Below, piece by piece: positions 6,070-44,834 of a DNA stretch of 64,000 nt (position 1 is the stretch's first letter; each line of letters starts with the position of its first letter). The translations under genes were made by a program, and so were the position numbers. Under the pieces are notes generated by a model. It had not been told where the DNA came from. It was given only the letters and a program-made list of their open reading frames with translations, and ran no database searches. Source of the stretch: Amycolatopsis alba DSM 44262 (lineage in GTDB: Bacteria > Actinomycetota > Actinomycetes > Mycobacteriales > Pseudonocardiaceae); NCBI RefSeq assembly GCF_000384215.1, contig NZ_KB913032.1, forward strand, positions 8,765,605-8,829,604, written 5' to 3'.

Positions 6070-6073
6070 CAGG

Positions 6074-7293
<1,220 letters not shown>

Positions 7294-7297
<4 letters not shown>

Positions 7298-8475
7298 CGA
7301 CACCTCAGGAACTCAAGGGGCGCGTGGCCGAGCTGCTGGCCGCGTATCCGCCGGAAAGCACGCCACGCCAGGACTTTCTCCACGCGCGGTTCGACGCCGG
7401 GCTGGCGTGGATCCACTTCCCCGAGGGCCTGGGCGGCCTGAGCGCGCCGCGTTCGCTCCAGTCCGTCGTGGACAAAGAGCTCGCGGCGGCGGGCGCGCCG
7501 GACAACGACAAACGGCGGATCGGGATCGGCCTCGGCATGGCCGCGCCGACCATTCTCGCCTTCGGCACCCCTGAGCAGCACCAGCGCTTCCTGCGTCCAC
7601 TGTGGACTGAGCGGGAGGTGTGGTGCCAGCTGTTCAGCGAGCCGGGCGCGGGTTCCGACCTCGCCGCGCTGGGCACCCGCGCGGTCCGCGACGGCGACGA
7701 CTGGGTGGTCACCGGCCAGAAGGTCTGGACTTCGGGCGCGCACAAGTCGCAGTGGGCGATCCTGGTCACCCGCACCGATCCCGACGTGCCGAAGCATCGC
7801 GGCATGACGTACTTCCTGTGCGACATGACCGCGCCGGGTGTGGAGGTCCGGCCGTTGCGCCAGATCACCGGTGAGGCCGAGTTCAACGAGGTCTTCCTCA
7901 GCGAGGTCCGCATTCCCGACGCGCACCGCCTCGGCGCGGTCGGCGAGGGCTGGAAGGTCGCGCAGACCACGCTGATGAACGAACGGGTCGCGATCGGCGG
8001 GACCGAGTTCCCGCGCGACGGCGGGATGGTCGGCGTCCTCACCGAGACCTGGCGAGAACGTCCGGAACTGCGGACCTCGGAACTGCACGACAGGCTGCTG
8101 AAACTGTGGGTGGAGGGCGAAAGCCTGCGCCTGGTGAGTTCGCGGCTGCGGCAGCAACTCGCCGCCGGCGCGCCCGGACCGGAGGGTTCCGCGGTCAAGG
8201 TCGCCTTCTCCGAGCTGAACCAGGCCGCGTCCGGGCTGGAGATCGAACTGCTCGGCGACGAAGGCCTGCGCTACGACGACTGGACGATGCGACGTCCGGA
8301 CGGCGTGAACTTCCTCGGCCGCGAGGCCGGATACCGCTATCTGCGCGCGAAGGGGAACTCCATCGAGGGCGGCACCTCGGAGGTCCTGCGCAACATCATC
8401 GCCGAGCGCGTGCTGGGGCTGCCGTCCGAGCCGCGGATCGACAAGGACGTCGCCTGGAAGGACCTGCCCCGATGA
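7294..8475 (+). CDS. Acyl-CoA dehydrogenase, likely catalytic subunit of a heteromer
   Basis: 393 residues. The FAD/substrate loop is [19 protein letters not shown] (about 111-129) and the C-terminal signature [20 protein letters not shown] carries the catalytic Glu. Starts with GTG and overlaps both neighbours by 4 bp. The following gene encodes a shorter dehydrogenase that lacks this signature, an arrangement known from alpha2-beta2 enzymes such as mycobacterial FadE28-FadE29. The heteromer is inferred, not seen. Confidence 0.85.
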
Positions 8476-9587
8476 GCGACCTGTTGTACTCCGAGGTCGA
8501 AGAGGACCTCCGGGCCAGTGTCCGCGACCTGTTCTCCGACCGCGTGGAACCGGCGTCCCTGATCACCAGGACCGAGACGGCCGAACCGTACGACCTGGCA
8601 CTGTGGCGCACGCTCGCCGCCGACCTCGGCGCGGCCGGTCTGGCCGTCCCGGAGGCGCTGGGCGGGCACGGTGCTTCGGCCCGTGAGGTCGCCGTGGTGA
8701 TGGAGGAACTCGGGCGCAGCGTCGCCCCCGTCCCCTATCTCGGCAGCGCCGTCCTGGCGACGTCGGCCCTGCTGGCGACCGACACTGCGCAAGCGGAAGT
8801 GACGGAAAGGCTCGGGAAACTGGCCGCGGGCGCGCTCATCGGCGCGCTGGCGGTACCGCTGTCGGCCACGCCCGGCGCCGGGTTCCCCTCGACGGTCACC
8901 GCGACCGCCGACGGGACGCTCGACGGCCAGGTCCGCAGCGTCGCCGACGCTTCGGTGGCCGAGCTGCTCGTCGTCCCGGCGGTGGGCCCCGACGGTCCCG
9001 GCCTCTACACGGTCGACGCGGCTTCGGCGGGCGTGACGGTCACCGAGGCGATTTCCCTGGACCTGACCCGGCGCATCGCCGACGTCACCTTGGAGAACGT
9101 GGCCGCGAAACGCGTCGCCGCCTCCTCGGCGGCGACGTCCGCGCTGGACACGGCACTCGTGACGGCGGCGGGGCTGCTCGCGTCGGAACAGCTCGGGATC
9201 GCCGAATGGGCGCTGACCGAAACGGTGCGCTATCTCAAGGAGCGCTACCAGTTCGGCCGTCAGGTCGGTTCCTTCCAGTCGCTGAAGCACCGGCTGGCGA
9301 ACCTGTACACGGATCTGGTCAACGCCAGGGCGACGGCGCGCTACGCCGCCGACTGCCTGGCTTCCGGTGACGACGTCGCGATCGCCGTCGCGGTGGCACA
9401 GGCCAGGAACTCCCCCATCGCCGTCCACGCCGCCGAAGAGGCGATCCAGCTGCACGGCGGGATCGGCATGACCTGGGAGCACCCCGCGCACCTGTACCTG
9501 AAGCGCGCGAAGAGCGACGAGATCGCCCTGGGCACCCCTGGGCGGCATCGCGCGGCCCTCGCCTCGCTGATCGACCTGCCCGCCTGA
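8472..9587 (+). CDS. Acyl-CoA dehydrogenase, likely non-catalytic partner subunit
   Basis: 371 residues from ATG 8472, which overlaps the previous stop by 4 bp; the frame is open further upstream but coupling fixes this start. The C-terminal domain keeps the FAD-binding helices (RYLKERYQFGRQVGSFQ, about 252-268; QLHGGIGMTWEH) but, where the catalytic Glu signature should be, reads DEIALGTPGRHR. The middle domain is short and Ala-rich. This matches beta-type subunits that supply FAD contacts while the neighbouring protein carries the base. Last gene of the operon, followed directly by a hairpin. Confidence 0.8.
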   Translation: MSDLLYSEVEEDLRASVRDLFSDRVEPASLITRTETAEPYDLALWRTLAADLGAAGLAVPEALGGHGASAREVAVVMEELGRSVAPVPYLGSAVLATSALLATDTAQAEVTERLGKLAAGALIGALAVPLSATPGAGFPSTVTATADGTLDGQVRSVADASVAELLVVPAVGPDGPGLYTVDAASAGVTVTEAISLDLTRRIADVTLENVAAKRVAASSAATSALDTALVTAAGLLASEQLGIAEWALTETVRYLKERYQFGRQVGSFQSLKHRLANLYTDLVNARATARYAADCLASGDDVAIAVAVAQARNSPIAVHAAEEAIQLHGGIGMTWEHPAHLYLKRAKSDEIALGTPGRHRAALASLIDLPA

Positions 9588-17914: not shown

Positions 17915-18657
17915 CGGCCCAGTTTTCGGTGGATCACCCCGAGCAGCTCCGGTACGCGCTGTTCGAGGTAGAAGTGCCCGCCGGGGTAGGTGACCATCGC
18001 CGAGTCGGCGGCGAGTTCGAGCCACGCCGACAGTTCGTCCAGATCGGCCCGCGGGTCGCGGTCGCCGCCGAACACGGTCAGCGGCACCGGCAACGGCTCC
18101 CCCGGCACATGCCGGTACGTCTCGTTGACCGCCAGGTCGGCCCGCATCAGCGGCAGGAACAGCGCCAGCAGTTCCCGTTCGCGCCGCAGGACGTCCGGCA
18201 GCCCGCCGAGAGCGTGGAGTTCGGCGGCGAGCCGCTCGTCTGGCAGGTCCCGCAGCTGGAGCCGGGTGTCGGGCAGCTGCGGCGCCGCCCTTCCCGACAC
18301 GAACAGGTGTTTCGGCAGCGTGGCCCCGCGCTCGGCGAGCCTGCGGGTGAGCAGGTACGCGGTCAGTGCGCCGACGCTGTGCCCGAAGAACGCGAAGTCC
18401 CCGGTCAGCGCGTCGCCGAGACCGTCGATGGCCGCGTCGACCAGGCTTTCGACGTCGGTGTGCGGCGTCTCGCGGCCGCGTTCGGCCCGGCCGGGCAGCT
18501 GAACCGGCAGGACGGCCAGCTCGTCGTCCGCCGCGAGGACCCATTCGCGGTAGACCGCCGCGCTCGCTCCCGCGTGCGGGAAGCAGAACAGCCTGGTCGC
18601 GCCGCCCGGCGGGATCCCGCCGGGCAGCCAGGGCCGGGTCGTGATCGGTACGGTCAT
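17911..18657 (-). CDS. Type II thioesterase
   Basis: 248 residues, typical of editing thioesterases of PKS/NRPS clusters. The alpha/beta-hydrolase triad can be placed: S94 in GHSVGA, Asp near 200 in GGDRDP and H228 in GGHFYL; the N-terminal FCFPHAGASA is the family hallmark. These enzymes clear stalled acyl groups from carrier domains. No thioesterase domain is present at the end of any PKS protein in this window, so this or an enzyme outside may also take part in release. Overlaps FkbH and PPTase genes by 4 bp each. Confidence 0.9.
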   Translation of the reverse strand: MTVPITTRPWLPGGIPPGGATRLFCFPHAGASAAVYREWVLAADDELAVLPVQLPGRAERGRETPHTDVESLVDAAIDGLGDALTGDFAFFGHSVGALTAYLLTRRLAERGATLPKHLFVSGRAAPQLPDTRLQLRDLPDERLAAELHALGGLPDVLRRERELLALFLPLMRADLAVNETYRHVPGEPLPVPLTVFGGDRDPRADLDELSAWLELAADSAMVTYPGGHFYLEQRVPELLGVIHRKLGR

Positions 18658-19703
18658 CGCAGCTCCATCGTCAGATAGGACGGCGGGGGCTGGATCGTGC
18701 TGAGGTCGGACTCCAGGACGAGCCTGTCACCGTCACGGGAGATCTCGGAGAATCCCGCGAAGGCGTAGGTCACGTACATGACCCGGTTGCGCCCGGTCTC
18801 GACGAAGTCCGCGCGCAGCTTCGCGCCGTCCTCCTTCGCCAGCCCCATGATGTGGTTGAGCAGGACCGTGCCGACCCCGCGCGACATCACCCGGCACGAC
18901 ATCAGCATCATCCGCAGATGCCAGGCCTCCTCGCCGCGTTCGGCCAGCGCGAGCCCGATCTTGCCGTAGCCGCCGTACTTGTCCGAAAGGGACGCGACGA
19001 GCAGCACGTGGTCGGGCGAGGTCCGCAGCTCGTCCAGTTCGTCGTAGGAGTAGGTGCGGCCGGTCGAGTTGAGCTGATTGGTGCGGACGGTCAGTTCCTC
19101 GGCCCGCTGCAGATCCTCCCGCTGCGCGCGGGCGATCGTGAACTTCATGTCCAAAGTGGACAGGAATTCCTCGCTGGTGCCTTCGTGGTCCTGTTCGACC
19201 TGCTCCCGCACGGCGGCCGCGCGGTAGAGCTCGCGGCGCACCCGCGACTCGTCGGTGACGAACTTGGGCCGGAACTCCTCCGACGCCAGGGTCTCCCCCA
19301 GCTTGGCAACGTCGACCGTCTTGACCGACGGCAGCGCGTGCGCGACCTCCTCCAGTTCGAAGGGCTGGTCGTCGACGAACGCGATCGCGTCGAGGCCGAT
19401 GTTGAGCGCCTTCGCGATCCGTTCCACGGAGCCGGATTTGGGGTTCCAGCTGATCTGCGGGTACAGGAAGTACTCGTCGAGCCCGGCCGCCTTCAGCCGC
19501 GCCATCGCCGCTTCGTGGTCGTTGCGGCTGGCCACCGAATGCAGGACGCCCAGCTCGTCGAGCCGCTTGATCTCCGCGACCACTTCGGGGCGCACGGTGA
19601 CCTCGCCGTCCTCCAGCAGGGTGCCGTCCCACAGTGTGTTGTCGAGGTCCCACACCACGCATTTGATGCGGCCCCGCTTGGGTTTCTCCAGAATCCCGGT
19701 CAT
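18654..19703 (-). CDS. fkbH: FkbH-like glyceryl-ACP synthase
   Basis: 349 residues from ATG 19703, overlapping the previous stop by 4 bp. N-terminal HAD domain with DLDNTLWDG (nucleophile D19, D21), plus a C-terminal GNAT-like part (about 190-330), the layout of FkbH. The family takes 1,3-bisphosphoglycerate, removes phosphate and loads the glyceryl group on a dedicated ACP, the first step to hydroxymalonyl- or methoxymalonyl-ACP. The partners (ACP, acyl-ACP dehydrogenase, 3-hydroxyacyl dehydrogenase) lie next door, so function is well supported. Confidence 0.92.
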   Translation of the reverse strand: MTGILEKPKRGRIKCVVWDLDNTLWDGTLLEDGEVTVRPEVVAEIKRLDELGVLHSVASRNDHEAAMARLKAAGLDEYFLYPQISWNPKSGSVERIAKALNIGLDAIAFVDDQPFELEEVAHALPSVKTVDVAKLGETLASEEFRPKFVTDESRVRRELYRAAAVREQVEQDHEGTSEEFLSTLDMKFTIARAQREDLQRAEELTVRTNQLNSTGRTYSYDELDELRTSPDHVLLVASLSDKYGGYGKIGLALAERGEEAWHLRMMLMSCRVMSRGVGTVLLNHIMGLAKEDGAKLRADFVETGRNRVMYVTYAFAGFSEISRDGDRLVLESDLSTIQPPPSYLTMELR

Positions 19704-20839
19704 CCCGACACCTCCCGGTACGCCTCGTCCGCGATGGTCAGCTCCTGGATCTGGGTGCTGCCCTCGATGATCTCCATGACTTTCGCGTCGCGGTACAGCC
19801 GGGCCACCGGATAGTCCGGGCCGCAGCCGTTCGCGCCGTGGATCTGCACCGCGTCCGAAGCCGCCTTCGCCGCGGCCGTGGACGCGAAGTACTTGGCGAC
19901 CCAGGTCGCCATGATGGTCGCCGGATCGCCCGCGTCCTTGAGCCGTCCCGCCTTCTCGCACAGCAGCCGCGCGGCGTCGCGAGCGGTGACCATTTCGCTG
20001 ATCTTGGCGCGGATCTGCGGCAGGTCCCGCAGCAGCCCGCCGCCCGCCGAACGCGCCGACGTGTAGGCGGCCGAAGCGGCCAGCGCCGCCCGCACGATGC
20101 CGACCGAGCCGCACGCCACGCTGTAGCGACCGAGGTCGAGCGCGCCGGTCATCACCGTGCCCGCCGCCCAGCCCGGCGGCCCCACCAGCGCGGACGGGTC
20201 GAGCCGGACGTCGTCGAACTCGATGGTCGCCAGCATGCTCGCCGTGGTGCCGAGCATGTGCCGGACCGGGGTCACCCGGACTCCGGGGTGGTCCGCGGGC
20301 ACCAGGAACGCGCTCATCCCGGTGGCCGTGCCCGCGAACACGAGGAACAGCCCGGCGACCTGGCCGCCGGTGATCCAGGTCTTGCGGCCCCGCAGGGTCC
20401 AGACGCCGTTCTCGGCGACCGCCACTGTTCCGGCGGCGGTCGAATCGCTGCCGCTGTGGTCCGGTTCGGTCAGGCAGAACGCGCCCAGTGTCGTGCCTTC
20501 CGACAGCTCGGGCAGCCAGCGTTCGCGCTGCTCGTCGTCACCCCAGCGCTGCACCGTCGCGGTCGCCATCGTGTGCACGGTGAGCAGGCTCCGCAGCGAT
20601 GAACAGCCGCGGCCGACCTCCTCGTGCAGCCGCCCGAGGGTGACCATGTCCAGCCCGGCGCCGCCGGCCTCGACGGGGAGGAACGGGGCCCACAGTCCCA
20701 GCTCCCCCACCCGCCGCAGCACGTCACCGGGGATGTTCTCGGCCCGGTCCCACCCGTCCGCGTGCGGGCAGACCTCCTCGTCGACGAAACGCCCGACCGC
20801 CTCTACCTCAGGGGTTTCGGGCCGTGTCCTCGCCCTCAC
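19700..20839 (-). CDS. fkbI: FkbI-like acyl-ACP dehydrogenase of extender-unit synthesis
   Basis: 379 residues from GTG 20839, preceded by GGAGAGAACGAC, 14 bp after the ACP stop. Acyl-CoA dehydrogenase fold with AFCLTEPDHSGSDS loop (about 127-140), GRKTWITGG and the C-terminal EIIEGSTQIQ containing the catalytic Glu. In methoxymalonyl-ACP and hydroxymalonyl-ACP pathways this enzyme oxidises the alcohol or aldehyde intermediate on the ACP. The position between the ACP and FkbH genes separates it from the catabolic dehydrogenases at 6-9.6 kb. Confidence 0.88.
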   Translation of the reverse strand: MRARTRPETPEVEAVGRFVDEEVCPHADGWDRAENIPGDVLRRVGELGLWAPFLPVEAGGAGLDMVTLGRLHEEVGRGCSSLRSLLTVHTMATATVQRWGDDEQRERWLPELSEGTTLGAFCLTEPDHSGSDSTAAGTVAVAENGVWTLRGRKTWITGGQVAGLFLVFAGTATGMSAFLVPADHPGVRVTPVRHMLGTTASMLATIEFDDVRLDPSALVGPPGWAAGTVMTGALDLGRYSVACGSVGIVRAALAASAAYTSARSAGGGLLRDLPQIRAKISEMVTARDAARLLCEKAGRLKDAGDPATIMATWVAKYFASTAAAKAASDAVQIHGANGCGPDYPVARLYRDAKVMEIIEGSTQIQELTIADEAYREVSG

Positions 20840-20853
20840 GTCGTTCTCTCCGT

Positions 20854-21105
20854 TCAGTGCGCGGCCGCGGCGGTGCGCCGCTCGACCAGCTCGGTCATCC
20901 GCGTGACGCTGCGGAAGTTGTCCAGCTTCAGCTCCTCGTTGGGGATCCGCGTGGCGAACGCCTTCTCGATGAACATGACCAGCTCCATCGCGAACAGGGA
21001 GTTCACGAAACCCAGCGCGAAGATGTCCTGTTCGTCGGTGAACGACAGGCTGGGGAACTTCGCCCCGATGAAGGCGCGGATCTCGCCGTTGACGTCCTGC
21101 GACAT
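20854..21105 (-). CDS. fkbJ: FkbJ-like acyl carrier protein
   Basis: 83 residues, normal ACP size. The phosphopantetheine Ser is S36 in GFVNSLFAM; the N before Ser instead of the usual D is characteristic of the FkbJ-type carriers that hold glyceryl and hydroxymalonyl groups. ATG 21105 has GAGAGAGG nine bases ahead. It is the carrier on which FkbH, the dehydrogenases and finally an acyltransferase act. Upstream lies a 189-bp gap with a strong inverted repeat, the only sizeable gap in this part of the operon. Confidence 0.92.
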   Translation of the reverse strand: MSQDVNGEIRAFIGAKFPSLSFTDEQDIFALGFVNSLFAMELVMFIEKAFATRIPNEELKLDNFRSVTRMTELVERRTAAAAH

Positions 21106-21294: not shown

Positions 21295-22140
21295 TCAGCC
21301 GCTGTAGTTGTAGAAACCCTTGCCGCTCTTGCGGCCGTGCAGGCCGGCCGCCGTCATCTGCTTGAGCAGCGGGCAGGGGCGGTACTTGCTGTCGTTGAAC
21401 TCGTCGTAGAGCACCTCGACGCTGTAGAGGATCGTGTCGACGCCGATCAGGTCGGCGGTCTCCAGCGGGCCCATCGGATGCCCGAAGCAGCCGCGGAACA
21501 CCTCGTCGACCGTCTCCGCGTCCGCGACCCCTTCGTGGACCAGGAAAGCGGCCTCGTTGACGGTGAGCATGAGCACGCGGTTGGAGACGAATCCGGAAGC
21601 GTCGTTGACCGGGATCGGCTTCTTCCCCATCGACAGCAGCAGCTCGCGCACGATGTCCTTTGTGGACTCGCTGGTGTGGTAGCCGGGGATGAACTCGCAC
21701 GACGGTTTCATCGGCACGGGGTTCATGAAGTGGACGCCCATCACCTTGTCCTGGCGCTGGGTGAGCGCGGCGACCTTGGTGATCGGGATGGCGGAGGTGT
21801 TGACGACGAACACGGTGTCGGCTTTGCAGGCCTCGTCGAGTTTCGGGTACAGGCGGGACTTCAGGTCCCAGTTCTCGGTGATGTTCTCGATCACCACCTC
21901 GGCCTCGGCGAGGAGTTCGAGTTCGGTGCCGAAGGTGATCCGGCCCAGCACCTCGGCCGCGTCGATCTCCGGGCCGCCGAGCATGCGGCTCATCCGGCAT
22001 TCGAGTTCGATCCGGTCGCGGGCGTCGGCCAGCTTGCCGGGGTCGACGTCGATGAGCACGGCCTCGTGCCCGCTGGTGGCGAGATTCTGCGCGACCCCGG
22101 TGCCCATCACACCGGCGCCGACGACTCCGACGAGGGTCAT
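21295..22140 (-). CDS. fkbK: FkbK-like 3-hydroxyacyl dehydrogenase of extender-unit synthesis
   Basis: 281 residues, overlapping the PKS D stop by 4 bp. Rossmann motif GAGVMG at 8-13 with acidic D31 after the second strand, predicting NAD. The catalytic His (in GVHFMNPV) and Glu 12 residues later (in PSCEF) are spaced as in 3-hydroxyacyl-CoA dehydrogenase. In the FkbH pathway this enzyme oxidises the glyceryl group on the ACP. A beta-oxidation role is unlikely given the neighbours. Confidence 0.9.
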   Translation of the reverse strand: MTLVGVVGAGVMGTGVAQNLATSGHEAVLIDVDPGKLADARDRIELECRMSRMLGGPEIDAAEVLGRITFGTELELLAEAEVVIENITENWDLKSRLYPKLDEACKADTVFVVNTSAIPITKVAALTQRQDKVMGVHFMNPVPMKPSCEFIPGYHTSESTKDIVRELLLSMGKKPIPVNDASGFVSNRVLMLTVNEAAFLVHEGVADAETVDEVFRGCFGHPMGPLETADLIGVDTILYSVEVLYDEFNDSKYRPCPLLKQMTAAGLHGRKSGKGFYNYSG

Positions 22141-25073
22141 CGTTCCTCCTTGGCTGCGTTGCTCGTGGTCAGGTCCAGCACGCCGTCGAGCCTGCCGTGG
22201 GCGGCCCGCACCGCGTCGGCGCCGCCGGGGTGCTCTTCGGCGAACACGACGGTCGCGCCCAGTTCGGCGCCCAGCCGGGCGGCCAGATCACGGGCGGTGA
22301 CGTCGAGTTCGCCTTCGATCAGGTAGACCGGCCGCGTGGACCGGGCGCCGAGCGCGACGTCGGCGGCGGCCTGGGTCGGCTCGATCCAGTAGCGGTCGCG
22401 CTGGAACGGATAACCGGGCAGCGTGGTCTTCCGCGGGTCACGGCCGTCGTGATAGGCCCGCCAGTCGATGTCCGCCCCGGACAGCCAGGCCCGGCCGAGC
22501 GCTTCGGTGAGCACGGCCGTGTCCTGGCGGGGGTCGGCCTCGCCGGGCAGGGTGGGTACCAGCAGCGACCACGAAGTCTGGGGGAAATCGGGGTGGCCGC
22601 GGAACATCGAGCCGAGCGACTGCCCGGCTCCCAGTTCCAGCAACACGGTATCCGGGGAATGACTGGCAAGATGCTCGATCATCGCGGCGAAGCGCACGGG
22701 ACGGCACATGTGCTCGGCCCAGTAGCCGGGATCGTTCAGCTGTTTGACGGTGATCGGCGCGCCGGTGACGTTCGACAGGTACGGCACTTCCGGCTCGCGC
22801 GGTGTGAGGTTCTTCCGCGCCCACGCGGTCAGTTCGGCGGCGGCGGGCCGCAGGGCCCGCGAGTGGAAGGCGTGCGTGGTGCGCAGCGGCCGGGCCGGGA
22901 CGCCGTGTTCGGCGAGCGCGGCGGCCAGCTTCTCGACGCCGTCGCCCGCGCCGGACACCACGATCATCCGCGGCCCGTTCACCGCGGCGACGTCGACGCC
23001 GAACGCGGTCACGTCGCCCACCAGCGCGGTGAGTTCGGCGGCGCCCAGCGGGATCGCGGCCATCGAGCCTTCGGGCAACTCCTCGATCAGCTTCGCGCGG
23101 GTGGCGACCAGCGCGGTGGCCTCCGCCAGGGTGAGGGCGCCCGCGAGGGTGGCGGCGGCGAACTCGCCGACGCTGTACCCGGCGAGCACGGACGGCTGGA
23201 CACCCCAGGCGCGCAGCAGGCGCCCGAGCGCGTAGCCGAGGGTGAACACGGCGGGCTGGGTAACGGACGGCGACGCGTCCTCGGCGTCGGTCGCGCGGCC
23301 CAGCAGCCGGGCGAGGTCTCCGCCGTCGGAACCGCGTTCGCCGTGCAGGCTTTCCGTCGGATCGGTGCCGAGCTGGGCCTTGAACAGCGCGGCGCATTCG
23401 TCGACGGCGGCCTTGAACTCCGGCTCGCTTGCGTACAGCCCGCCCGCCATGCCGCGGTACTGCTCGCCGACCCCGGCCAGCAGGAAAGCCGCCTTCCGCG
23501 GCTTCGAGCCCGCTTCGGCGACCACACTGGTCTCGGACCCGAACGCGTCGGCGGCGTCATCCACAGAGGACACGACCGTCATCCGGCGGTGGTCGAAAGC
23601 CTTCCGGCCGTTGTGCAGCGTGTAGGCGACGTCGGCGAGATCCGTCCACTCAGGACGGTCCGCGGCGAGCCTGCCGGTCATCGCGTCGGCCGCCTCGGGG
23701 GTCCGCGCGGACCACGCGAGCAGCTGATGCGGCCGGGCGTCCGGGCGCTCCGGGCAGTCCTCCGGTGCCTCCTCGATGACGACGTGAGCGTCGGTGCCGC
23801 CGAAGCCGTACGCGCTGACCCCGGCCAGCCTCGGCCGTTCCCCGCGCGGCCAGTCGCCCAGTTCCGCCTGGACAACGAGCTTGTCGCCGCTGTGCGCCAG
23901 CTGCGGATTGGGCTTCTCGAAGTTGACCGCCGGCGGCAGCTTCTCGTGGTGCAGCGCCAGCGCGGCCTTGATCAGGCGGGCGATACCGCCCGCCTGGTTG
24001 ATGTGCCCGAGGTTCGCGTCGATCGAGCCGAGCGTGACCCGCTCGACGTCGTCGACGTCGAAGATCTTCTGCAGCGCGGAGATCTCGGCGACGTCGCCGA
24101 ACGGAGTGCCCAATGTGGACACTTCGATGTGGTCGATCTCGGCGGGTTCGACGTCGGCGGCGGCCATCGCCTCGGCGACGACGGCGGCCTGACCGGGTAC
24201 GCCCGGCAGGTTGAACCCCTGCCGCGCGCGGTTGCCCTCGTGGTGGATGGCCCAGCCGCGGATCACCGCGTAGACGCGGTCGCCGTCGGCCAGCGCGTCC
24301 TCCAGCCGCCGCAGCACGACGACGCCGAGACCGTTGCCGGGGACCTTGCCGTTGGCGCCCGCGTCGAGGATCCGGTTGATCCCGTCGGGCGCGAACCGGC
24401 TGCCCTCGCGGTAGAGGTAGCCCGGTTCCTGCGGCACGACAACGGAAACCGAACCGGAGACCACCAGGTCGGACTCGCCGGTGAGCAGGCTGGAGCAGCC
24501 CTGCGCGACGGCGGCGAGCGCGGTCGAGCTGCAGCTCTGGACGCTGACGGACGGACCGGTCAGGTCGAGCGCGTACGACAGCCGGGACGCGATCAGGTCC
24601 TTTTCGTTCTGCAGGATCAGCTGGTCCGGGCCGACGGTCAGCGCGGTGACGTCGTTGGAGAGCAGGTTCGACAGCAGGTAGGTGCTCGGGGCGCCGCCGG
24701 CGAACACCCCGGCGAGGCCTTCGATCCGGTCCGGGTCGACGCCCGCGTCCTCCAGCGCGTGCCACGCGCATTCGAGGAACAGCCGGTGCTGCGGGTCGAG
24801 CAGTTCGGCGTCGGCCCGGTCGTAGCCGAAGAAGTCGGCGTCGAAGCGGTCGATCCCCGGCAGCAGGCCCGCCGCGGGGACGAACGCGGGGTCGTCGGCC
24901 ACTTCGGCGGGGACGCCCGCGGCGAGCAGTTCGTCGCGGGTCATCCGGGTGATGCCGTCGCGGCCGGCGCACAGATCGGCCCAGAACTTGCCGATGTCGG
25001 GCGCGCCGGGGAAGTTCCCGGCCATGCCGACGATCGCGATGTCGTCGCCGGTGTCCCGTTCTCGCGTGGTCAT
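22137..25073 (-). CDS. PKS D: free-standing KS-AT didomain with inactivated KS, no carrier
   Basis: 978 residues from ATG 25073, 8 bp after the PKS C stop. Domains: KS about 11-430, AT about 525-895, then an 80-residue tail of no clear domain; no ACP, KR or TE. The KS lacks normal chemistry: where other KSs read T-A-C-S, this reads S-C-S-S, placing S182 at the nucleophile position (C181 is one residue early), and EAHGTGT is EVSTLGT, with S319 for the first His; only H357 is kept. The AT looks active: GYSVGE (Ser near 632), HAFH (near 735) and an Arg at the usual place. No docking coil at either end. It probably works as an acyltransferase acting in trans; see findings. Confidence 0.85.
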   Translation of the reverse strand: MTTRERDTGDDIAIVGMAGNFPGAPDIGKFWADLCAGRDGITRMTRDELLAAGVPAEVADDPAFVPAAGLLPGIDRFDADFFGYDRADAELLDPQHRLFLECAWHALEDAGVDPDRIEGLAGVFAGGAPSTYLLSNLLSNDVTALTVGPDQLILQNEKDLIASRLSYALDLTGPSVSVQSCSSTALAAVAQGCSSLLTGESDLVVSGSVSVVVPQEPGYLYREGSRFAPDGINRILDAGANGKVPGNGLGVVVLRRLEDALADGDRVYAVIRGWAIHHEGNRARQGFNLPGVPGQAAVVAEAMAAADVEPAEIDHIEVSTLGTPFGDVAEISALQKIFDVDDVERVTLGSIDANLGHINQAGGIARLIKAALALHHEKLPPAVNFEKPNPQLAHSGDKLVVQAELGDWPRGERPRLAGVSAYGFGGTDAHVVIEEAPEDCPERPDARPHQLLAWSARTPEAADAMTGRLAADRPEWTDLADVAYTLHNGRKAFDHRRMTVVSSVDDAADAFGSETSVVAEAGSKPRKAAFLLAGVGEQYRGMAGGLYASEPEFKAAVDECAALFKAQLGTDPTESLHGERGSDGGDLARLLGRATDAEDASPSVTQPAVFTLGYALGRLLRAWGVQPSVLAGYSVGEFAAATLAGALTLAEATALVATRAKLIEELPEGSMAAIPLGAAELTALVGDVTAFGVDVAAVNGPRMIVVSGAGDGVEKLAAALAEHGVPARPLRTTHAFHSRALRPAAAELTAWARKNLTPREPEVPYLSNVTGAPITVKQLNDPGYWAEHMCRPVRFAAMIEHLASHSPDTVLLELGAGQSLGSMFRGHPDFPQTSWSLLVPTLPGEADPRQDTAVLTEALGRAWLSGADIDWRAYHDGRDPRKTTLPGYPFQRDRYWIEPTQAAADVALGARSTRPVYLIEGELDVTARDLAARLGAELGATVVFAEEHPGGADAVRAAHGRLDGVLDLTTSNAAKEER

Positions 25074-25081
25074 GGGGTGGT

Positions 25082-28000
25082 TCACCTTCCGGTCCGGCTC
25101 GGGCGCTTGCGCAGCTTCGCGGTGCGGGCGCGGCGGCGTTCGCCGCGGGCGGAGACGTCTTCGGCGACCCCGGCAGGCTCGGCGGCCGCCGGGGACTGCT
25201 CGCCGAGGAGCGTGACGAATTCGGCGATGGTCGGTTTCTCGAACAGGCTCGCCGGGGCCAGTTCGACGCCGAACTCCTTGGCGACGCGGCCGATCAGCAC
25301 CAGCCCGATCAGTGAAGTGCCGCCGAGGTCGAAGAACGGGTCGTGCACGCCGACCTCTTCCAGGCCGAGGCAGTCGCACCAGGCGGCGGCGACGCGCACC
25401 TCGGCCGGGGTGCGCGGGGCGACGTACGCGGTGCGCAGCTCGGGCCGCGGGTACCGCTCCCCGGTCGGGATCGCGGCGTCGGCGCCGACCAGTGCGTCGA
25501 CCGAACCCATCCGGGCCAGCGCGGCCAGCACGTCGGTCAGCGGGAGCGGCAGCACGGTCACCAGCGGCTCGCCGGAGGCGACGATCCGCGAGAGCAGTTC
25601 GGTGCCTTCTTCGGCGCCGATGCCGAATTCCTCGCGGAACTTGCGGGAACCTTCCTGCGCCTCGGCGGACCCCGAGAGCCCGGACGCCGTCCAGGCGTCC
25701 AGCTGCCAGGGACCCCACGCGACCGACACGACCTGCTTGGCCGGGCCGCGGCCGCCCGCCGAGGCCGAGGCGACCCCGTCCAGGAAGGCGTTGGCCGCGG
25801 AGTAGTCGATCTCGCCGACGCCGACGGTGAGCGTCACCGTCGAGGAGTACAGGACCAGCAGGTCGACCGGTTCGACACGCAGCGCCTCGGTGAGGGCGAG
25901 GGTGCCGTCGATCTTCGGCGCCAGCACCGCGGCCGCCTGCTCGCGGGTCTTGTTCTGCAGCAGACCGCCACCGGCGATCCCGGCAGCGTGCACGACACCG
26001 TCGAGGTACCCGAAGTAGCCGCGGACCTCCGCCAGCAGCGCAGCGGCCTCGCCGGGAGCACTGACGTCGGCGCGCAGCGTCAGGACGTCGGCGCCGAGGG
26101 CACGCAGATCCCGGACAGCCAGCAGTACTTCGCTCTTGCGGTCGTCGACTCCGTGGTCCCGGATCCAGTCGTCCCAGGTCTCCTCCGGCGGGAGCTCGGA
26201 ACGGCCTGCCAGCGCGAGGTTCACGCCCAGCGGTGCGAGCCGCCGTGCCAGCGCGAGACCGAGGACGCCGAGACCACCGGTGATCAGGTAAGTACCGCCG
26301 GGCTTCCACGCCAGCGCGTCGTCGGTCTCGGGCAGCTCGACGACGTCGAAACCGCGCAGCCAGCGCCGTCCGCCGCGCCAGGCGGCGACCGCGACCCCGT
26401 CGACAGTGTCCACTGTGGACGCAGTCAGCAGGTCGAGTTCGTGCAGGACTTGGGCTGTCTTGTCACCGGTGCGGTCGAAGTCCGCGTACTGCGCGTGGAC
26501 CAGCGGGTACTCGGCGGCGATCGCGTCGGTCGTGGCGGCGATGGTCGGGGCGAAGGCGTCGGTGGCGTCCCCGCCGAGGACGTCGAAGCCGTTGTGTCCC
26601 AGGGAGAGCAGGTCGACCCGGCGGCCGGCGCATTCGGCGCCGATGGCCTTGCCGAGTTCCAGGAGACTGTAGAAGCCGGATTCGAGGCCGCTCGCGGTGA
26701 GCCCGAGGGCGTGCACGATCCGGAGCGGTCCGTCCCCGGCAAGTACCTGGCGCGTGATCTCGGAGGCGACCGTGACGCGGTGTCCGGCGGCTTCCGCGGC
26801 GGCCGCGAAGCCGTCGGCGAACTTGCCCGGCTCGGCGAACAGGACCAGGTCACCCGGTGTCACCGGCGTGCGGCGGGTACTGTCGCGGCGCCAGGTCGGC
26901 GTGTGCGCGGCCAGACCGTCGCGGACCGGCGTCTCCGGCTGCGGTTCACCGGCGGACATCTGCGACAGCGACCAGCCGCCACCGCGGGAAGCGACCTCGG
27001 GCCAGTAGCGGGTGCGCTGGAAGCGGTAGCCGGGCAGGGAGACGAACCGGCGGTCCGGTCCGGCGCCGTCCGCCCAGCCGATCTGGACGCCGTGCTCCCA
27101 GAGCGCGCCGAGCGCGGTCAGCCAGGCGCGCCGTCCGGCACCGGCCACCGGCTCCGGAAGCAGGGAGACCACCGGAGTCTGCGGCAGGTAGCGGCCCGCC
27201 GCCTCGGCGCCCTCGTCACCGAGGCCGGCTTCGACCAGGACTCCGGCGTACTTCGCCAGCGCCAGCAGGCCGTCTTCGAAGCGGTCGTCCGCGATCCGCC
27301 AGTGCGCCGGATCGGCGGCCTCGGCGGCGGTGAGCACAGTACCGGTGCGGGGCGAGATCACCGGCACCGTCGGCGTTCCCGCCCGCGGAACCGGCCCGCC
27401 GAGCGCGAGTTCGAGCCCCTCGGCGAGACCGAACAGCCCGCCCGCGACGGCGGCGGCGCATTCGCCGGTCCCCCGGCCGAGTACCACGGCCGGTTCGAGA
27501 CCCCACGCGGTCAGCAGCCGGGTGAAGGCGTACTCGACGGCGAAGACCACGGCCCGTTCGTCGGCCTCGGCCGTGCCGTAGAGCGCGCCGAGCAGGTCGA
27601 TGCGACCGTCCAGCAGGGCCGCGCACTCGTCGATCGCGGCGCGGAAGGCGAGTTCGGTGCGGTACAGCTCGTCGGTGGTGCCCTGCCACGCGCCGCGGGT
27701 GCCCGGCAGCAGGAGACCGAAGCGCCGCTTGTCCGTGACGGCCGAGCCGCCGGTGACCGCGCGCAAGGCCGTGACGGCGTCGGCGTGATCGCGCACCAGC
27801 ACCGCCTTGCGGAGCGGAAGCGCGCTGCGCCCGGCCTGGGTGGTGAAGGCGACGTCGGCCAGTTCCCCGGTCAGGTTGTCGGCCAGCGCCTCGGCATTGG
27901 CACGAAGACCGGCTTCGCTCTGGCCGGACACCGTGAGCAGCTGCCATTCCCCGCCGGGGATGGCCGCCGGGGCGGGCGCGGCCTGGTCGAGGACGAAGTG

Positions 28001-31000
28001 CACGTTGGACCCGGACCAGCCGAAGGAGCTGACGCCCGCGCGCAGCACCCCGGCGGCGTTGGCCGGGAAGGGCCGCGCCTCGGGGACCGGGCGGACCGTG
28101 CCGTCCACGGTGACCACCGAGTTCGGCGTGCTCATGTGCAGATTGCCCGGCAGGGTGCTGTTTTCCAGCGACAGCACGGTTTTGATCAGCCCGGCCATCC
28201 CCGCCGCCGCGAGCGTGTGGCCGACGTTCGTCTTGACCGCGCCGACGTAGAGCGGCTCGGGCGCGTTCCGCTCGCCGAAGATCTCGCCGAGCGCGGTGAA
28301 CTCGATCGCGTCGCCGAGCTGCGTGCCGGAGCCGTGTGCCTCGACGTAGCCGATCTCGTCGGGGCTGACCCCGGCGTCGGCGAGCGCCGCGCGGATGACC
28401 GCGTTCTGCGCCGCGCGGTTGGGCGCGGTGAGCCCGTTGCTGCGGCCGTCCTGGTTGGTCGCGGTGCCGCGGATGACCGCGCGGGTGCGCCTGCCCTGGC
28501 CGACTTCGCCCGCCCGGCGGAGCACCACGACGCCGCCGCCTTCGCCGATGACGTAGCCGTCGGCGCTCTCGTCGAAGGTCTTGGTGCGGCCGTCTGCGGC
28601 GAGCATGCTCATCTTGCAGGATTGGATGAAGACGTCCGGGTTGATCATCGCCGACGCGGCGCCGACGATCGCGATGTCGCATTCGCCGCGGCGGAGGCTC
28701 TGCACAGCCAGATGCGCCGCGCTCAGCGCCGACGAGCAGGCGGTGTCGACGGTCAGGCAGGGGCCGCGCAGGTCGAGCAGATGCGCGATGCGCCCGGCGG
28801 CGGCGGAAAGCGAGCTGCCGAGGCCGAAGTAGGGGTCGTCGGCCGCGTCCATGCCGTCGGCTTCGAGCTGCCGCATGCTGTACTGCATGGTGTCGATCAG
28901 CCCGGCGAACACGCCGGTGCGGCTGCCGCGCAGTTCGTCGGCGGTGAGCCCGGCGTCCTCGATGCCCTCCCACACCAGCTCCATGAGCAGGCGGAAGGTC
29001 GGGTCGAGCCGCCGCGCTTCCTGGGGCGACAGGCCGAAGAACGCCGCGTCCCAGCCCGCGATGTCATCGACGAACGCGCCCTGCTGCGTGTACGCCTTGC
29101 CCGGCGCGGTGCGGTCGGGGTCGTAGTAGTCGGCGGCCCTCCAGCGGTCCGGCGGGACCTCGCGCACGAGATCCTTGCCCTGGACGAGGTTCTGCCAGAA
29201 CTTTTCGGGAGTGTCGCTGCCGCCGGCGAAGCGGCAGGAGAGACCGACGACGGCGACGTCCTGACCCGCGGCGGCCGGTCCGGCGACGACGGTCCGCGTC
29301 TCGCGTTCGGCCGGGGTGAGCGCGGCCAGCAGATGCGCGGCGAGCGCGGCCGGGGTCGCGTGGTCGAACACCATCGTCGGCGGGAGCGCGAGTCCGGTCT
29401 CGGTGTTGATCCGGCCGCGCAGTTCGATGGCGGTGAGCGAATCGATGCCCAGTTTGGTGAACTGCTGCCCGGCCGGGACGCCGTCGGTGTGCCCGAGCAC
29501 GGCGGCGGTGTGGGTCAGGACCAGTTCGGTGATGACGCGTTCGCGTTCGGCCTCGGGAAGCCCGGCGAGGCGGGTCCGCCACGCGTCGGCTGCCTCGGCA
29601 CCTTCTTCGGCCTGGGCGGCTTCGGCCTCGGCGATGGCGACGACCTCGGGGAGGTCGGCCAGCAACGGGCTCGGCCGCAGCGCGGCGAACGGCGGGGCGA
29701 ACTTCTCCCAGGTCAGTTCGGCGACGGTCAGCGCGGTCTCGTCACGGTCCAGCGCCTGGCCGAGCGCGACGAGACCGGTTTCCGGCGCCATGGCCGGGAC
29801 GCCGAGTCCGCTGAGCATCTCGTCGAGGTCCGCGCCGACGCCCATGCCGACCTTGCCCCAGCGGCCCCACGCGATCGACGTCGCGGGCAGGCCGTTGGCC
29901 CGGCGCCGCTGCGCGACGGCTTCGAGGTACGCGTTCGAAGCGCCGTAAGCACTCTGGACCGCGTTGCCGATGGAGGCGGCGATCGAGGAGAACAAAACGA
30001 AAGCGTCGAGGTCGAGGCCTTCGGTCAGCTCTTCGAGGTTGCGCGTCCCGGCGACCTTCGGGCGGAGGACGTCGGCGTAGCGCGTGCGGTCCATCGACTC
30101 GATGAGGCCTAGTTCGAGGACGCCAGCAAGGTGGAAGACGGCGCGGAGGTCGTCGCGGATCGGGTCGATGACGGCGACCAGCGCGTCCTTGTCGGCGACG
30201 TCGCAGGAGGCGATGGTGACGCGATCGCCTGCCAGTTCGGCCGCGCCGGGAGCGTCTTGTCCTTGGCGCGACACGAGAACGACGTGTTCGGCGCCGTGCT
30301 CGACGAGCCAGCGGGCGACGATCCCGCCGAGTCCGCCGGTCCCGCCGGTGACGAGCACGGTGCCGCGCGGCTGCCAGGACCGCTTGGCCTCGGCGGGTTC
30401 GGCGTGGACGAGCCGCCTGCCGAAGGCGCCGGTGGCCCGGACGGCGACCTGGTCTTCGCCGCGAGGGCCGGTGAGGACGCCACGCAGGAGGGCGACGGTC
30501 CGCTCGCCCGGCTCGGCCGGGACGTCGACGAGCCCGCCCCACGCCTGCGGGTTCTCCAGCGCGGCAGCGCGGCCGAAGCCCCACAGCTGAGCCTGCGCGG
30601 GCGAGTCCGGTGCGTCGTGAGCGCCGGTCGAGACCGCGCCGCGAGTGAGCGTCCACAGTGGACCTTGCGGGTCACGCGCGGCCAGCTCCCGGACCAGCGC
30701 CATCGTGGCTTCGGCGCCGAAGGACAGTCCGTCGGTTTCGGTCTCGTCGAGGGCCAGCAGGGACAGGATGCCGTCGAAGGACTCGTCAGGAAGTTCTACG
30801 CGGTCAGGGTGCTCGACGACGAGCCGCCGCACCTCGGCACCGGCCAGGGCCTCGGCCGCGGTCTCGATCCACGGGTGCTCCTGCGCGGACGTGACGAGCA
30901 GCCAGCGTCCGGTGGCCGTCGTCGTCGCGGGCGTGAAGGGCTGCCAGCGGACGTGGTAGGCCAGCGAAGTCGCTTCGGCGGCCAGCGACCGGGCGCGACG

Positions 31001-33817
31001 GTAGCGCGACAACGCGGGCAGGACCGTGCCGAGCGGGGCTTCGACGTCGGACAGCTTCAGCTCGGCGGCGAACTCGCCGACGTCACCGGATTCGACGACC
31101 GACCAGAACCGGCCGTCCTCGGCGGCGACCACTCCCGCGCCAGGGTCTTCCAGCCAGAAACGCTTGCGCTGGAAGGGATACGTCGGCAGCGTGACCACAC
31201 GGGCGCCGCTGCCACTCAGGTAGGCGGACCAATCGACGCGCGCGCCGTGCGCATGAACGAGACCCAGCGCGGTGACGAGCGTGGCGGCCTGGTCGCGGTC
31301 CTTGCGCTGGGCAGCGGCGAAGACCGCGCCCTCAGGACGGACCGAGCGGCCCATCGGGGTGAGTGCCGCATCCGGGCCGAGTTCGAGGAAGGCCGTGACG
31401 CCTTGGCCGTGCAGGGTTTCCACCGCGTCGGCGAACCGGACGGTGCCGCGGACGTGCTCGGCCCAGTACTCCGGATCGGTGAGCCGGTCGGCGATCTCGC
31501 CGGTCAGCGTCGAGACGACCGGGATCGCGGGCTCACGGTAGGTCAGGGTCCGCGCGACGGCGGCGAACTCGGCGAGCATCGGCTCCATCAGGGCCGAGTG
31601 GAAGGCGTGGGACACGGAGAGCCGGGTCGTGCGGCGGCCGGGAAAGCGTTCGGCGACCGCGATGGTCGCCGCGTCGGCGCCGGACAGGACGACCGCGCGC
31701 GGACCGTTGACCGCCGCGAGCGCGACCTCGGCCGACAGGTAAGGGCGGACCTCGTCCTCGGTCGCCTCCAGCGCGATCATCGCGCCGCCCTCGGGCAGCG
31801 CCTGCATCAGCTTGCCGCGAGCGGCGACCAGGCGAGCGGCGTCCTCCAGGGAAAGCACCCCGGCGACGTGCGCAGCCGCCAGCTCGCCGACCGAATGCCC
31901 GGCGAGGAAGTCCGGGCTGACACCCCACGACGTGACGAGCCGGAACAGCGCGACCTCGAAGGCGAACAGGGCGGGCTGGGCGAACTCGGTGCGGTCGAGC
32001 CGCGCGGCGTCGGCGCCGAACACGACGTCCCGGACGCCGGGGAGATGCGCGCAGGCCTCGTCGAAAGCGGCGGCGAACACCGGGAAGCACTCGTGGAGAC
32101 GGCGGCCCATGCCGAGCCGCTGCGACCCCTGGCCGGTGAACAGCATGGCCAGCCGTCCGGCGGTGTCGCTGCCGGTGACCGTGCCCGCTTCGCCGCCCGC
32201 GAGAGCGCGGAGACCGGCGGCCAGCTCGGCGCGGTCCGCGCCGGTGACGACCGCGCGGTGCTCCATCCCGGCGCGCGTGGTGGCGAGGGACAGCGCGACA
32301 TCGACGGGCTCGGCGCCGGATTCGTCCACGGTGGACAGCAGCGCGGCGGCCTGCGCGCGGACGGCGGCGGGCGAGGCACCGGACAGCACGTACGGGACCA
32401 CCTGCGGCGCCGCGATTTCCCTGGCGGGATCAGCTTCTTCGGCAGGCTGCTCCAGGATGACGTGCGCGTTGGTGCCGCTGATCCCGAACGAAGACACGCC
32501 CGCCCGACGCGGCCGGTCGGTCGCTGTCCACGGGCGGGCCTCGGCGAGCAGCTCGACCGAACCCGCGGACCAGTCGACATGCGGGGACGGCGCGTCGACG
32601 TGCAGGGACGCGGGCAGCGTGGCGTGCCGCATCGCCTCGACCAGCTTGACGATCCCGGCGAGCCCGGCCGCGGCCTGGGTGTGGCCGATGTTGGACTTCA
32701 CCGAGCCCAGCCACAGCGGCGTTTCGCGGTCCCGGCCGTAGGTGGCCAGCAGGGCTTGCGCCTCGATCGGGTCACCCAGCGCGGTCCCGGTGCCGTGCGC
32801 CTCGACGACGTCCACAGTGGACGCTTCCACCCCGGCGTTCGCGAGCGCCGCACGGATCACGCGCTGCTGGGACGGGCCGTTCGGGGCGGTCAGGCCACTG
32901 GACGCGCCGTCGGAGTTGACCGCGCTGCCACGCACGAGCGCGAGGACCGGGTGGCCGTTGCGGCGCGCGTCGGAGAGGCGTTCCAGCACGAGCATCCCGG
33001 CGCCCTCGGCCCAGTTCGTGCCGTCGGCGGCGGCCGCGAACGGCTTGCAGCGACCGTCCGGCGCGAGCCCCCGCTGCCGCGAGAACTCGACGAACGCGCC
33101 CGGCGTCGCCATCACCGTGACCCCGCCGGCCAGCGCCAGCGTGCACTCCCCCGACCGCAGCGCGCGGGCGGCGAGGTGGACCGCGACCAGCGACGACGAA
33201 CAGGCCGTGTCGATCGACACCGACGGCCCTTCGAGGCCGAGCGCGTAGGAGACGCGGCCGGACACCACACTGCCGGAGGTGCCGATGCCGAGATAGCCCT
33301 CGTGTTCCTCGGGCAGCGCGGTCAGCCGTGACGCGTAGTCGGTGAACCCGACGCCCGCGAACACCCCGGTGGCGCTGCCCTTGAGCGAAAGCGGGTCGAT
33401 CCCGGCCCGCTCGACGGCCTCCCACGCCGTCTCGAGCAGCAGCCGCTGCTGCGGGTCGGTCGCCTCGGCCTCACGCGGCGAGATGCCGAACAGCTCGTTG
33501 TCGAACTCCGCGGCGTCGTGCAGGAAGCCGCCCTCGCGGACGTAGCTGGTGCCGGGGACGGACGGGTCGAGGTCGTGGATCGCGTCGGTGTCCCAGCCGC
33601 GGTCGGCGGGGAACGGCGAGATCGCGTCGCCGCCGCCGTCGATGAGTTCCCACAGCTGTTCCGGGGTGCGGACGCCGCCGGGGAACCGGCAGCTCATCGC
33701 GACGATCGCGATGGGCTCGGTCTCCTTCTCCCGCGCGTCCGCCAGCTCGCGGCGGCTCTCCCGCAGGTCGGCCGCCATCCGCTTGAGGTAGTCGACGTAC
33801 TGCTCTTCCGAAGGCAT
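25082..33817 (-). CDS. PKS C: two modules, KS-AT-KR-ACP and KS-AT(dead)-KR-carrier
   Basis: 2911 residues. N-terminal docking coil ([19 protein letters not shown]) fits the C-terminus of PKS B. The first module is ordinary, with a malonyl-type AT (GHSVGE, HAFH) and no DH. The second module differs in character: its KS ([15 protein letters not shown] start) is of another subfamily, its AT has lost the catalytic Ser and the HAFH region, its KR contains a long insert, and its carrier reads FFDLGGTSL as in peptidyl carriers rather than GxDSL. The C-terminus is a basic tail ([16 protein letters not shown]) without docking coil or thioesterase. Preceded by AGGAG and 28 bp after PKS B. Confidence 0.92.
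25190..29265 (-). other. Module C2: KS, AT without active site, KR, PCP-like carrier
   Basis: KS about 29.26-27.99 kb, complete ([20 protein letters not shown]). AT remnant about 27.74-27.01 kb: GHSxGE has become GRGTGE, with Arg2115 for His and Gly2116 (codon 27470-27472) for the nucleophile Ser; the part that should hold HAFH is missing. KR about 26.31-25.70 kb with ITGGLGVLG and Tyr in IDYSAANAF. Carrier about 25.38-25.19 kb. It needs an acyltransferase from elsewhere. Confidence 0.85.
29265..33720 (-). other. Module C1: KS-AT(malonyl)-KR-ACP
   Basis: KS about 33.71-32.44 kb with [10 protein letters not shown] about 32.16-31.15 kb; KR about 30.37-29.83 kb with Lys (RPKVAGT), Ser and Tyr (SAYGASN) present; ACP about 29.56-29.32 kb with LGIDSL. 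The KR has neither LDD (B-type) nor the Trp of A-type ketoreductases, so alcohol stereochemistry cannot be read. Expected to leave a beta-hydroxyl. Confidence 0.85.

Positions 33818-33845: not shown

Positions 33846-44834
<10,989 letters not shown>

Follow-up and report, generated by a model that had tools for sequence, protein, structure and literature searches.

A former polyketide synthase module as the proposed acyltransferase donor of the preceding module in Amycolatopsis alba

Modules of trans-acyltransferase (trans-AT) polyketide synthases (PKSs), such as those that make bacillaene, lack an acyltransferase (AT) domain and are loaded by an AT that resides on another protein. A similar division of labour is proposed here for one module of an assembly line in Amycolatopsis alba DSM 44262, which is located within a stretch of 64,000 nucleotides (contig NZ_KB913032.1 of assembly GCF_000384215.1, positions 8,765,605 to 8,829,604 of the forward strand) that is termed the window and whose own numbering is used below. 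The module, C2, is the second module of the protein PKS C, and its proposed AT donor is the protein encoded immediately downstream, PKS D. Whereas the AT of trans-AT systems is free-standing, here a single module of a cis-AT line appears to be served, and the donor would be a former module with its inactive ketosynthase (KS; the inactive form is denoted KS') still attached. AT swapping is a main tool of polyketide engineering, and to our knowledge the origin of AT-less modules inside ordinary cis-AT lines is an open question.

Several other described systems resemble parts of this arrangement. CalA3 of the calcimycin pathway is, like PKS D, a terminal KS-AT protein without a carrier domain that follows the last working module, and the product is released by amidation. 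Its KS keeps the Cys-His-His residues and its AT is dead, which is the reverse of PKS D. PfaB, from polyunsaturated fatty acid synthases, also combines a pseudo-KS with an AT that has its catalytic residues, again without a carrier and with the same Tyr in front of the AT Ser. This protein moves long chains and is described as lacking the malonate-binding Arg, whereas PKS D keeps that Arg as well as the second KS His. The zwittermicin ATs ZmaA-AT and ZmaF share the GYSxG motif of PKS D, and the hydroxymalonyl unit used by ZmaA-AT comes from a carrier protein. ZmaA-AT, however, forms part of the PKS ZmaA, and ZmaF is a discrete AT. Finally, module 12 of the irumamycin PKS has been proposed to borrow its AT from a neighbour in a cis-AT line, as we propose for C2. 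That proposal derives from a structural model, and the donor is the upstream module, described as malonyl-specific and working, whereas the donor considered here lies downstream and has a dead KS.

PKS C (2911 aa; 25082..33817, on the minus strand, as are its domains, PKS D and the genes of the FkbH set described below) consists, according to a domain search, of modules C1 (KS-AT-KR-ACP, where KR is a ketoreductase and ACP an acyl carrier protein) and C2 (KS-dead AT-KR-ACP2). The C2 KS (27983..29257) has all of its Cys, His, Lys and His residues. A domain scan also detects the KR (25703..26299), whose catalytic Lys, Ser, Tyr and Asn are present, and an ACP2-type carrier with a GGTSL motif (25196..25414) that is the proposed acceptor of the extender unit. 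The same scan recovered no AT in C2. The remnant found in its place (27002..27727) matches only positions 10-113 of the 319 positions of the Pfam AT model (35.6 bits), carries GRGTGE (27461-27478) where GHSxGE is expected, such that Gly replaces the Ser nucleophile, and lacks the HAFH region. C2 is thus an AT-less extension module with a live KS and carrier, as is characteristic of trans-AT PKSs.

The start of PKS D (978 aa; 22137..25073) at position 25073 is separated by only 8 nucleotides from the PKS C stop at 25082. The protein carries an inactive KS (23769..25040) and a complete AT (22452..23489), and a domain search finds no PP-binding domain in it. Alignment to live relatives places Ser182 (codon 24528-24530) at the position of the catalytic Cys, Ser319 (codon 24117-24119) at that of the first His and Asp352 at that of the Lys, while the second His (His357) is kept. 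We rejected the possibility that this KS still has its nucleophile, because the Cys of its VQSCSSTAL motif lies one residue early relative to the live IQSACSTSL and the Ser that follows it occupies the nucleophile position. By comparison, Ser634 of the AT (in GYSVGE, 23163-23180), Arg659 (23097-23099) and His737 are all kept, and HAFH is found at 22863-22874. The predicted model of PKS D shows a full KS-linker-AT fold with a mean pLDDT of 88.9. After the AT there is a short tail (22140..22334). Comparison with live relatives suggests that it is what probably remains of the KR region from a time when the module was complete.

There are 22 aligned copies of PKS D, including that of the window. 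In every copy the nucleophile position of the KS is occupied by Ser and the first-His position by a residue other than His. The Lys is gone in 19, and 21 retain the Ser, Arg and His of the AT. Because of this consistency, the residue pattern is not one of chance. The sequence-only reading of the locus, made from the nucleotides without database searches, had described a C2 that keeps its KS, KR and carrier and has lost the AT Ser and HAFH region, followed after 8 bp by a carrier-less PKS D with the opposite set of defects. The domain scan and the alignment bear out each of these points, and the complementarity extends to relatives, as 17 of 17 clusters with a degenerate-KS PKS D and a readable PKS C, the window's included, have an AT-less C2.

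We consider it likely that C2 and PKS D together form one working module that carries out the twelfth and last extension, wherein the AT of PKS D loads hydroxymalonyl onto the C2 carrier. In this arrangement, C2 would supply the KS, KR and carrier, and PKS D, a former complete downstream module that has lost its KS activity, KR and carrier, would supply the AT that is dead in C2. PKS D would still use the docking contact of its days as a true next module, with the tail at the C-terminus of PKS C, and its AT would take hydroxymalonate from the small carrier of the adjoining FkbH gene set and pass it to the C2 carrier. The earlier proposal, in which PKS D serves as a scaffold with the shape of a KS and its AT loads the C2 carrier, is the best-supported reading, given the nested clades, intermediate clusters, kept tail, module count and AT motif described below, from which we infer the loading itself, the docking and the extender unit. 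That proposal had also set the pair apart from trans-AT systems, which use a small free AT, and from ordinary cis-AT modules. This distinction holds, since the proposed donor is a 978-aa KS'-AT protein and there is no free-standing AT gene in the cluster; the AT matches in small frames elsewhere in the genome (323, 587 and 291 aa) are all more than 1 Mb away.

Matches to PKS D are found in 58 of 398 relatives, from which 34 neighbourhoods (L031-L064) were scanned together with the window, using seeds taken from the window. A degenerate PKS D accompanied by a readable PKS C occurs in 17 clusters (the window, L031-L037, L039-L042 and L045-L049), and these are the clusters in which C2 is always AT-less. 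There are 14 loci with a live-KS PKS D and a readable C2, and the C2 AT is live in 11 of them and lost in three. Outside these counts are L053, which gave no C2, L038, in which C2 is cut by the contig end, and L043 and L044, which lack PKS C. The loci thus fall into three stages: both C2 and the D-like module have live-looking KS and AT domains (11 loci, L054-L064); the C2 AT is lost while PKS D keeps its KS Cys, His, Lys and His, its AT and a carrier (three loci, L050-L052); or the C2 AT and the PKS D KS are both lost (17 loci). In the AT remnants of L050 and L051 the Ser is replaced by Gly, as in the C2 of the window. L047-L049 have lost most of the C2 AT by deletion, judging from a KS-to-KR gap of 414-427 aa that compares with 557-596 aa in the 13 others with a KR match. 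Two apparent exceptions were rejected: the C2 of L042, which appeared to lack a KR in a first scan, has KR sequence present, and the AT-less appearance of the L056 C2 is an artefact of a split KS match, such that this C2, whose AT was found in the domain scan, was counted by hand as having one. The live-KS D-like frame of L057 (G134:C1) is 1119 aa long and stops before the KR and carrier, whereas near relatives reach about 1400 aa, which reflects either a frameshift or a real truncation.

Trees of the two modules, which are quick trees with SH-aLRT (approximate likelihood-ratio) support only, place the KS-dead copies of PKS D in one clade (20 rows, SH-aLRT 100) beside the live copies of L050-L052. 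The AT-less copies of C2 also form one clade (20 rows, SH-aLRT 98), which includes the 17 clusters and L050-L052, in a tree wherein L052, L060 and L059 have long branches. A single origin of AT loss applies to this C2 clade alone, as four changes of the AT label are needed over all C1 and C2 rows, which include the three AT-less C1 copies of L050-L052 and the artefactual C2 row of L056. Because the AT-less C2 clade takes in three loci with a live PKS D, the order of the losses that emerges from these trees is that the C2 AT was lost while PKS D was still a live module and the KS of PKS D afterwards. When the 581-aa tail of C2 was used as a query across the 398 relatives (E up to 1e-90), a homologue was found in 24, and all 24 also have a D-like match. 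Thus, no C2-like module without a D-like gene, which would have spoken against the proposal, was found among them.

The three loci of the middle stage (L050, L051 and L052, corresponding to G221:C119, G206:C2 and G101:C1) are unusual in their own right. In these genomes C1, C2 and the last module, F, are AT-less, modules D and E have an AT, and modules further upstream have their own. There is no free-standing AT gene in the approximately 60-77 kb scanned. The simplest reading of these domain layouts is that D and E would serve their AT-less neighbours.

The junction between the two proteins seems to have been retained through all three stages. PKS C ends in a basic tail (ARGERRRAR...; 25085..25153 in the window) that matches RG[EQR]RRR in 30 of 31 loci and reads RGTERRR in the remaining one, L060. 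PKS D has only a brief acidic stub at its N-terminus (MTTRERDTGDDIA in the window), whereas the N-termini of the window's subunits B and C are longer and resemble YLKR...LRE, which we take to be the coiled-coil docking type. It seems that a junction used for chain transfer in the live clusters has been kept where no live KS can receive a chain, and the basic tail of PKS C is a candidate docking element for PKS D.

Positions that hardly vary among 26 live copies of D and E were compared with 20 dead PKS D copies, and a position was counted as lost when at least 80% of the latter had changed it. By this measure 22 of 133 positions are lost in the KS and two of 75 in the AT (Fisher p 0.0026). The Cys, Lys and Asn are among the lost KS sites, as is the His-Gly-Thr of the loop that holds the first His. 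The mean pairwise dN/dS values over 28 pairs of eight Amycolatopsis copies, pairs which are not independent of each other, are 0.049 for the KS' of PKS D compared with 0.032 for the live C1 KS and 0.041 for the C2 KS, and 0.137 for the AT of PKS D, 0.127 for the C1 AT and 0.107 for the C2 AT remnant. Because the values for KS' and AT are low, PKS D is not a decaying gene. In comparisons with L040 and L041, the C2 AT remnant has the highest dN/dS of the regions measured (0.264), and the AT of PKS D has a value of 0.206.

The genes that follow PKS D point to the extender unit that its AT may load. The PKS D stop codon overlaps by 4 bp the ATG of a gene for a 3-hydroxyacyl-CoA dehydrogenase (21295..22140), after which come a small free-standing carrier-like protein (20857..21105), recognized by eye rather than by family search and proposed as the hydroxymalonate carrier, an acyl-CoA dehydrogenase (19700..20854, with an approximate high end) and an FkbH-family glyceryl transferase (18654..20114, with a true start possibly at a lower coordinate; FkbH domain 288 bits, cut-off 147). 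A comparable gene set has been proposed to make hydroxymalonyl-ACP in tetromadurin biosynthesis. Matches to the two dehydrogenases and FkbH follow PKS D in 18 of 18 loci (the window, L031-L042 and L045-L049), while the small carrier is described from the window only. In addition, the AT of PKS D has GYSVGE, in contrast to GHSxG in the 11 remaining ATs of the line. A published motif table gives GYSFG for the hydroxymalonyl-ACP-specific ZmaA-AT and GYSLG for ZmaF, against GHSxG for the CoA-dependent ATs listed alongside. The GYSxG form is found in 35 of 35 PKS D copies (for L064, an initial GRST call came from a wrong match and the real motif is GYSLG), and the live C2-like ATs of related clusters are of the GYS type in 11 of 11 cases. 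From these motifs, C2 and PKS D may have shared a substrate, which could be why the C2 AT was dispensable.

The product of the cluster provides a further means of counting modules. All 10 of the genes compared between the window and Amycolatopsis azurea contig NZ_MUXN01000002 (L066) are 90-98% identical over their aligned parts. Octacosamicin A has been linked bioinformatically to the combined A. azurea PKS clusters 16.3 and 2.1, and by our reading of the numbering, cluster 2.1 lies on contig 2, the contig compared here. The cluster of the window is very probably the octacosamicin assembly line. A YqcI/YcgG-family gene at 16455-17300 matches the model of the GntA guanidine N-hydroxylase (198 bits, cut-off 145), which is in keeping with an N-hydroxyguanidine end of this compound. 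An abstract on octacosamicin biosynthesis reportedly describes that end and a terminal module with neither ACP nor thioesterase, and also mentions an alpha-hydroxyketone, glycine and a hydroxymalonyl unit.

The extended line consists of a loading carrier and 12 modules with a live KS, of which C2 is the twelfth. Modules 1-11 each have a complete AT, which separates this line from trans-AT lines, wherein modules are generally AT-less. Starting from 4-guanidinobutyryl, which we assume to be the starter of the octacosamicin line, 12 two-carbon units give a 28-carbon chain. To relate the line to the reported octacosamicin m/z values of 625 and 639, masses were enumerated with an assumed N-hydroxyguanidine start and an assumed glycine end, modules 1-9 set from their domains, choices at modules 10-12, and zero or one methyl branch. 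Among 32 variants with 12 extensions, the pair of 625 and 639 arises only from hydroxymalonate at module 12, one ketone (from module 11 or 12) and a hydroxyl at module 10, with masses of 625.381 and, with the methyl group, 639.396. None of 128 variants in which PKS D performs a thirteenth extension falls at nominal m/z 625 or 639. Thus, the masses favour hydroxymalonate without proving it. The sequence-only reading had allowed for malonyl or an ACP-bound hydroxymalonyl-type unit as the substrate of PKS D; the AT motif, the masses and the adjoining genes together favour hydroxymalonyl-ACP over malonyl.

Several observations weigh against the proposal that PKS D loads C2 with hydroxymalonate. 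Each of the two losses is a single evolutionary event, so Fisher values overstate independence. Two Sciscionella genomes (L043 and L044) have a second PKS D copy with no PKS C nearby, and P0024, a 781-aa protein of Amycolatopsis panacis, has also lost the AT site (GYGVGE, with the HAFH region absent), and from its residues is a D-like KS-AT in which both domains are dead. In the close Amycolatopsis set, the dead C2 AT does not evolve faster than the live ATs (0.107 compared with 0.127 and 0.137), and the constraint on KS' is near that of a live KS, which indicates that KS' may do more than hold the AT. With regard to the substrate, GYSxG is common among distant relatives with unknown substrate, and the second carrier-recognition motif of PKS D (the RXR site) gives a mixed result, as it reads Pro-Ala-Arg, with the first charge lost and the last kept. 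Malonate with one methyl group also yields 625.417, with no 639 in that set, and the use of hydroxymalonate requires one ketone by mass, yet the KR of module 12 looks intact.

Two alternative readings have PKS D act on the finished chain. One possibility, which we regard as improbable, is that its AT handles this chain as PfaB does and moves it from C2 to glycine or water. PfaB offers a precedent for a pseudo-KS and AT without a carrier at the end of a line, and it has the same Tyr before its catalytic Ser. However, PfaB is described as lacking the malonate-binding Gln-Arg pair, of which the Arg is present in all but one of the 22 PKS D copies. This argument is qualified by the residue at the position taken for the Gln, which is Val in PKS D. 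In addition, GYS-type ATs are also found in live modules with their own carrier, and a role of this kind would leave C2 unloaded. Release by the AT is therefore only partly excluded, and less well so than release by the KS.

The latter alternative, to which we assign a smaller chance still, holds that PKS D resembles CalA3, such that its KS would take the finished chain from C2 and join it to glycine as an amide. CalA3 is itself a terminal, carrier-less module and frees its product by amidation, PKS D follows the last carrier of the line, and strong constraint acts on its KS', in which every copy has Ser as the residue at the nucleophile position. Moreover, intermolecular amidation is the release mechanism given in the title of a paper on octacosamicin biosynthesis (Liao et al. 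2024, doi 10.1002/cbic.202300590), and this paper may already discuss PKS D. Nevertheless, CalA3 is the mirror image of PKS D in its active sites, and the CalA3 mutations C197A, H332A, K367A, H372A and L437A each abolish amidation. By motif, PKS D has Ser in place of both C197 and H332 and Asp in place of K367, while H372 is kept, so that at least three of the five required residues are changed. A CalA3-like role would also leave C2 without an AT and the conserved AT of PKS D without a job.

It is more doubtful again that C2 is loaded by another AT, either that of C1 or FabD of the fatty acid synthase, with PKS D as a leftover. The irumamycin authors proposed AT11 for the carrier T12 where AT12 is inactive, and the A. 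alba genome has a free AT of 323 aa which by its length is probably FabD. However, PKS D is under purifying selection with its AT site kept, and the C2 tail has never been found without a D-like gene (24 of 24 genomes). The C1 AT is of the GHS/HAFH, malonyl-CoA type and is not expected to use a hydroxymalonyl carrier. Finally, we can give almost no credence to the idea that PKS D continues to add a unit to the chain on a carrier supplied in trans, since, despite the full KS-AT fold of its predicted model, the KS Cys and first His are gone in all copies and the Lys in 19, and none of the 13-extension masses fits.

Returning to PKS D as the AT donor of C2, we give about even weight to a broader reading in which this locus represents a change from cis-AT to trans-AT supply that is in progress. 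In that case, an AT-sharing stage, as in G221, G101 and G206, would have come first, after which, in the lineage of the window, PKS D, having lost its KS, KR and carrier, became a dedicated AT donor, and two modules were merged without gene fusion. Perhaps KS' now holds or gates the chain for its release onto glycine. The supply of an AT in trans is known, and what appears new is the unusual donor and the visibility of the evolutionary steps, as the live, intermediate and final stages are all present in living strains. Searches of the open-licence literature, a scope that leaves outside most subscription papers including the one on octacosamicin, brought up no report in which a former module with a dead KS acts as AT donor to the preceding module. 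Nature appears here to have replaced the AT of a module by retaining its downstream neighbour, still docked, as the donor. The C2-D pair would be a ready system for the study of trans-loading by a KS-AT scaffold and of hydroxymalonyl delivery, and it presents an alternative to the view that the last protein of the octacosamicin line serves for extension or release.

Additional observations concern other parts of these clusters. The second PKS D copies of Sciscionella (L043, L044 and L065) are 70% identical, with a dead KS and an intact AT. In genome G151, there is no other PKS domain over 54.8 kb around the second copy, and matches to the two dehydrogenases and FkbH are not found beside the copies of L043 and L044. 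The copy of L065 adjoins genes for an ornithine cyclodeaminase-like protein, a PLP enzyme and a carbon-nitrogen hydrolase. Within the window, modules 9 and 10 are encoded at 33846-44834, and the dehydratase of module 10 is truncated (74 aa aligned), because of which this module probably leaves a hydroxyl. The AT of module 9 is the only one in the line that has HASH in place of HAFH, a difference that could explain the methyl branch. Lastly, three adjoining acyl-CoA dehydrogenase-like frames are found at the cluster edge (6044-9587).

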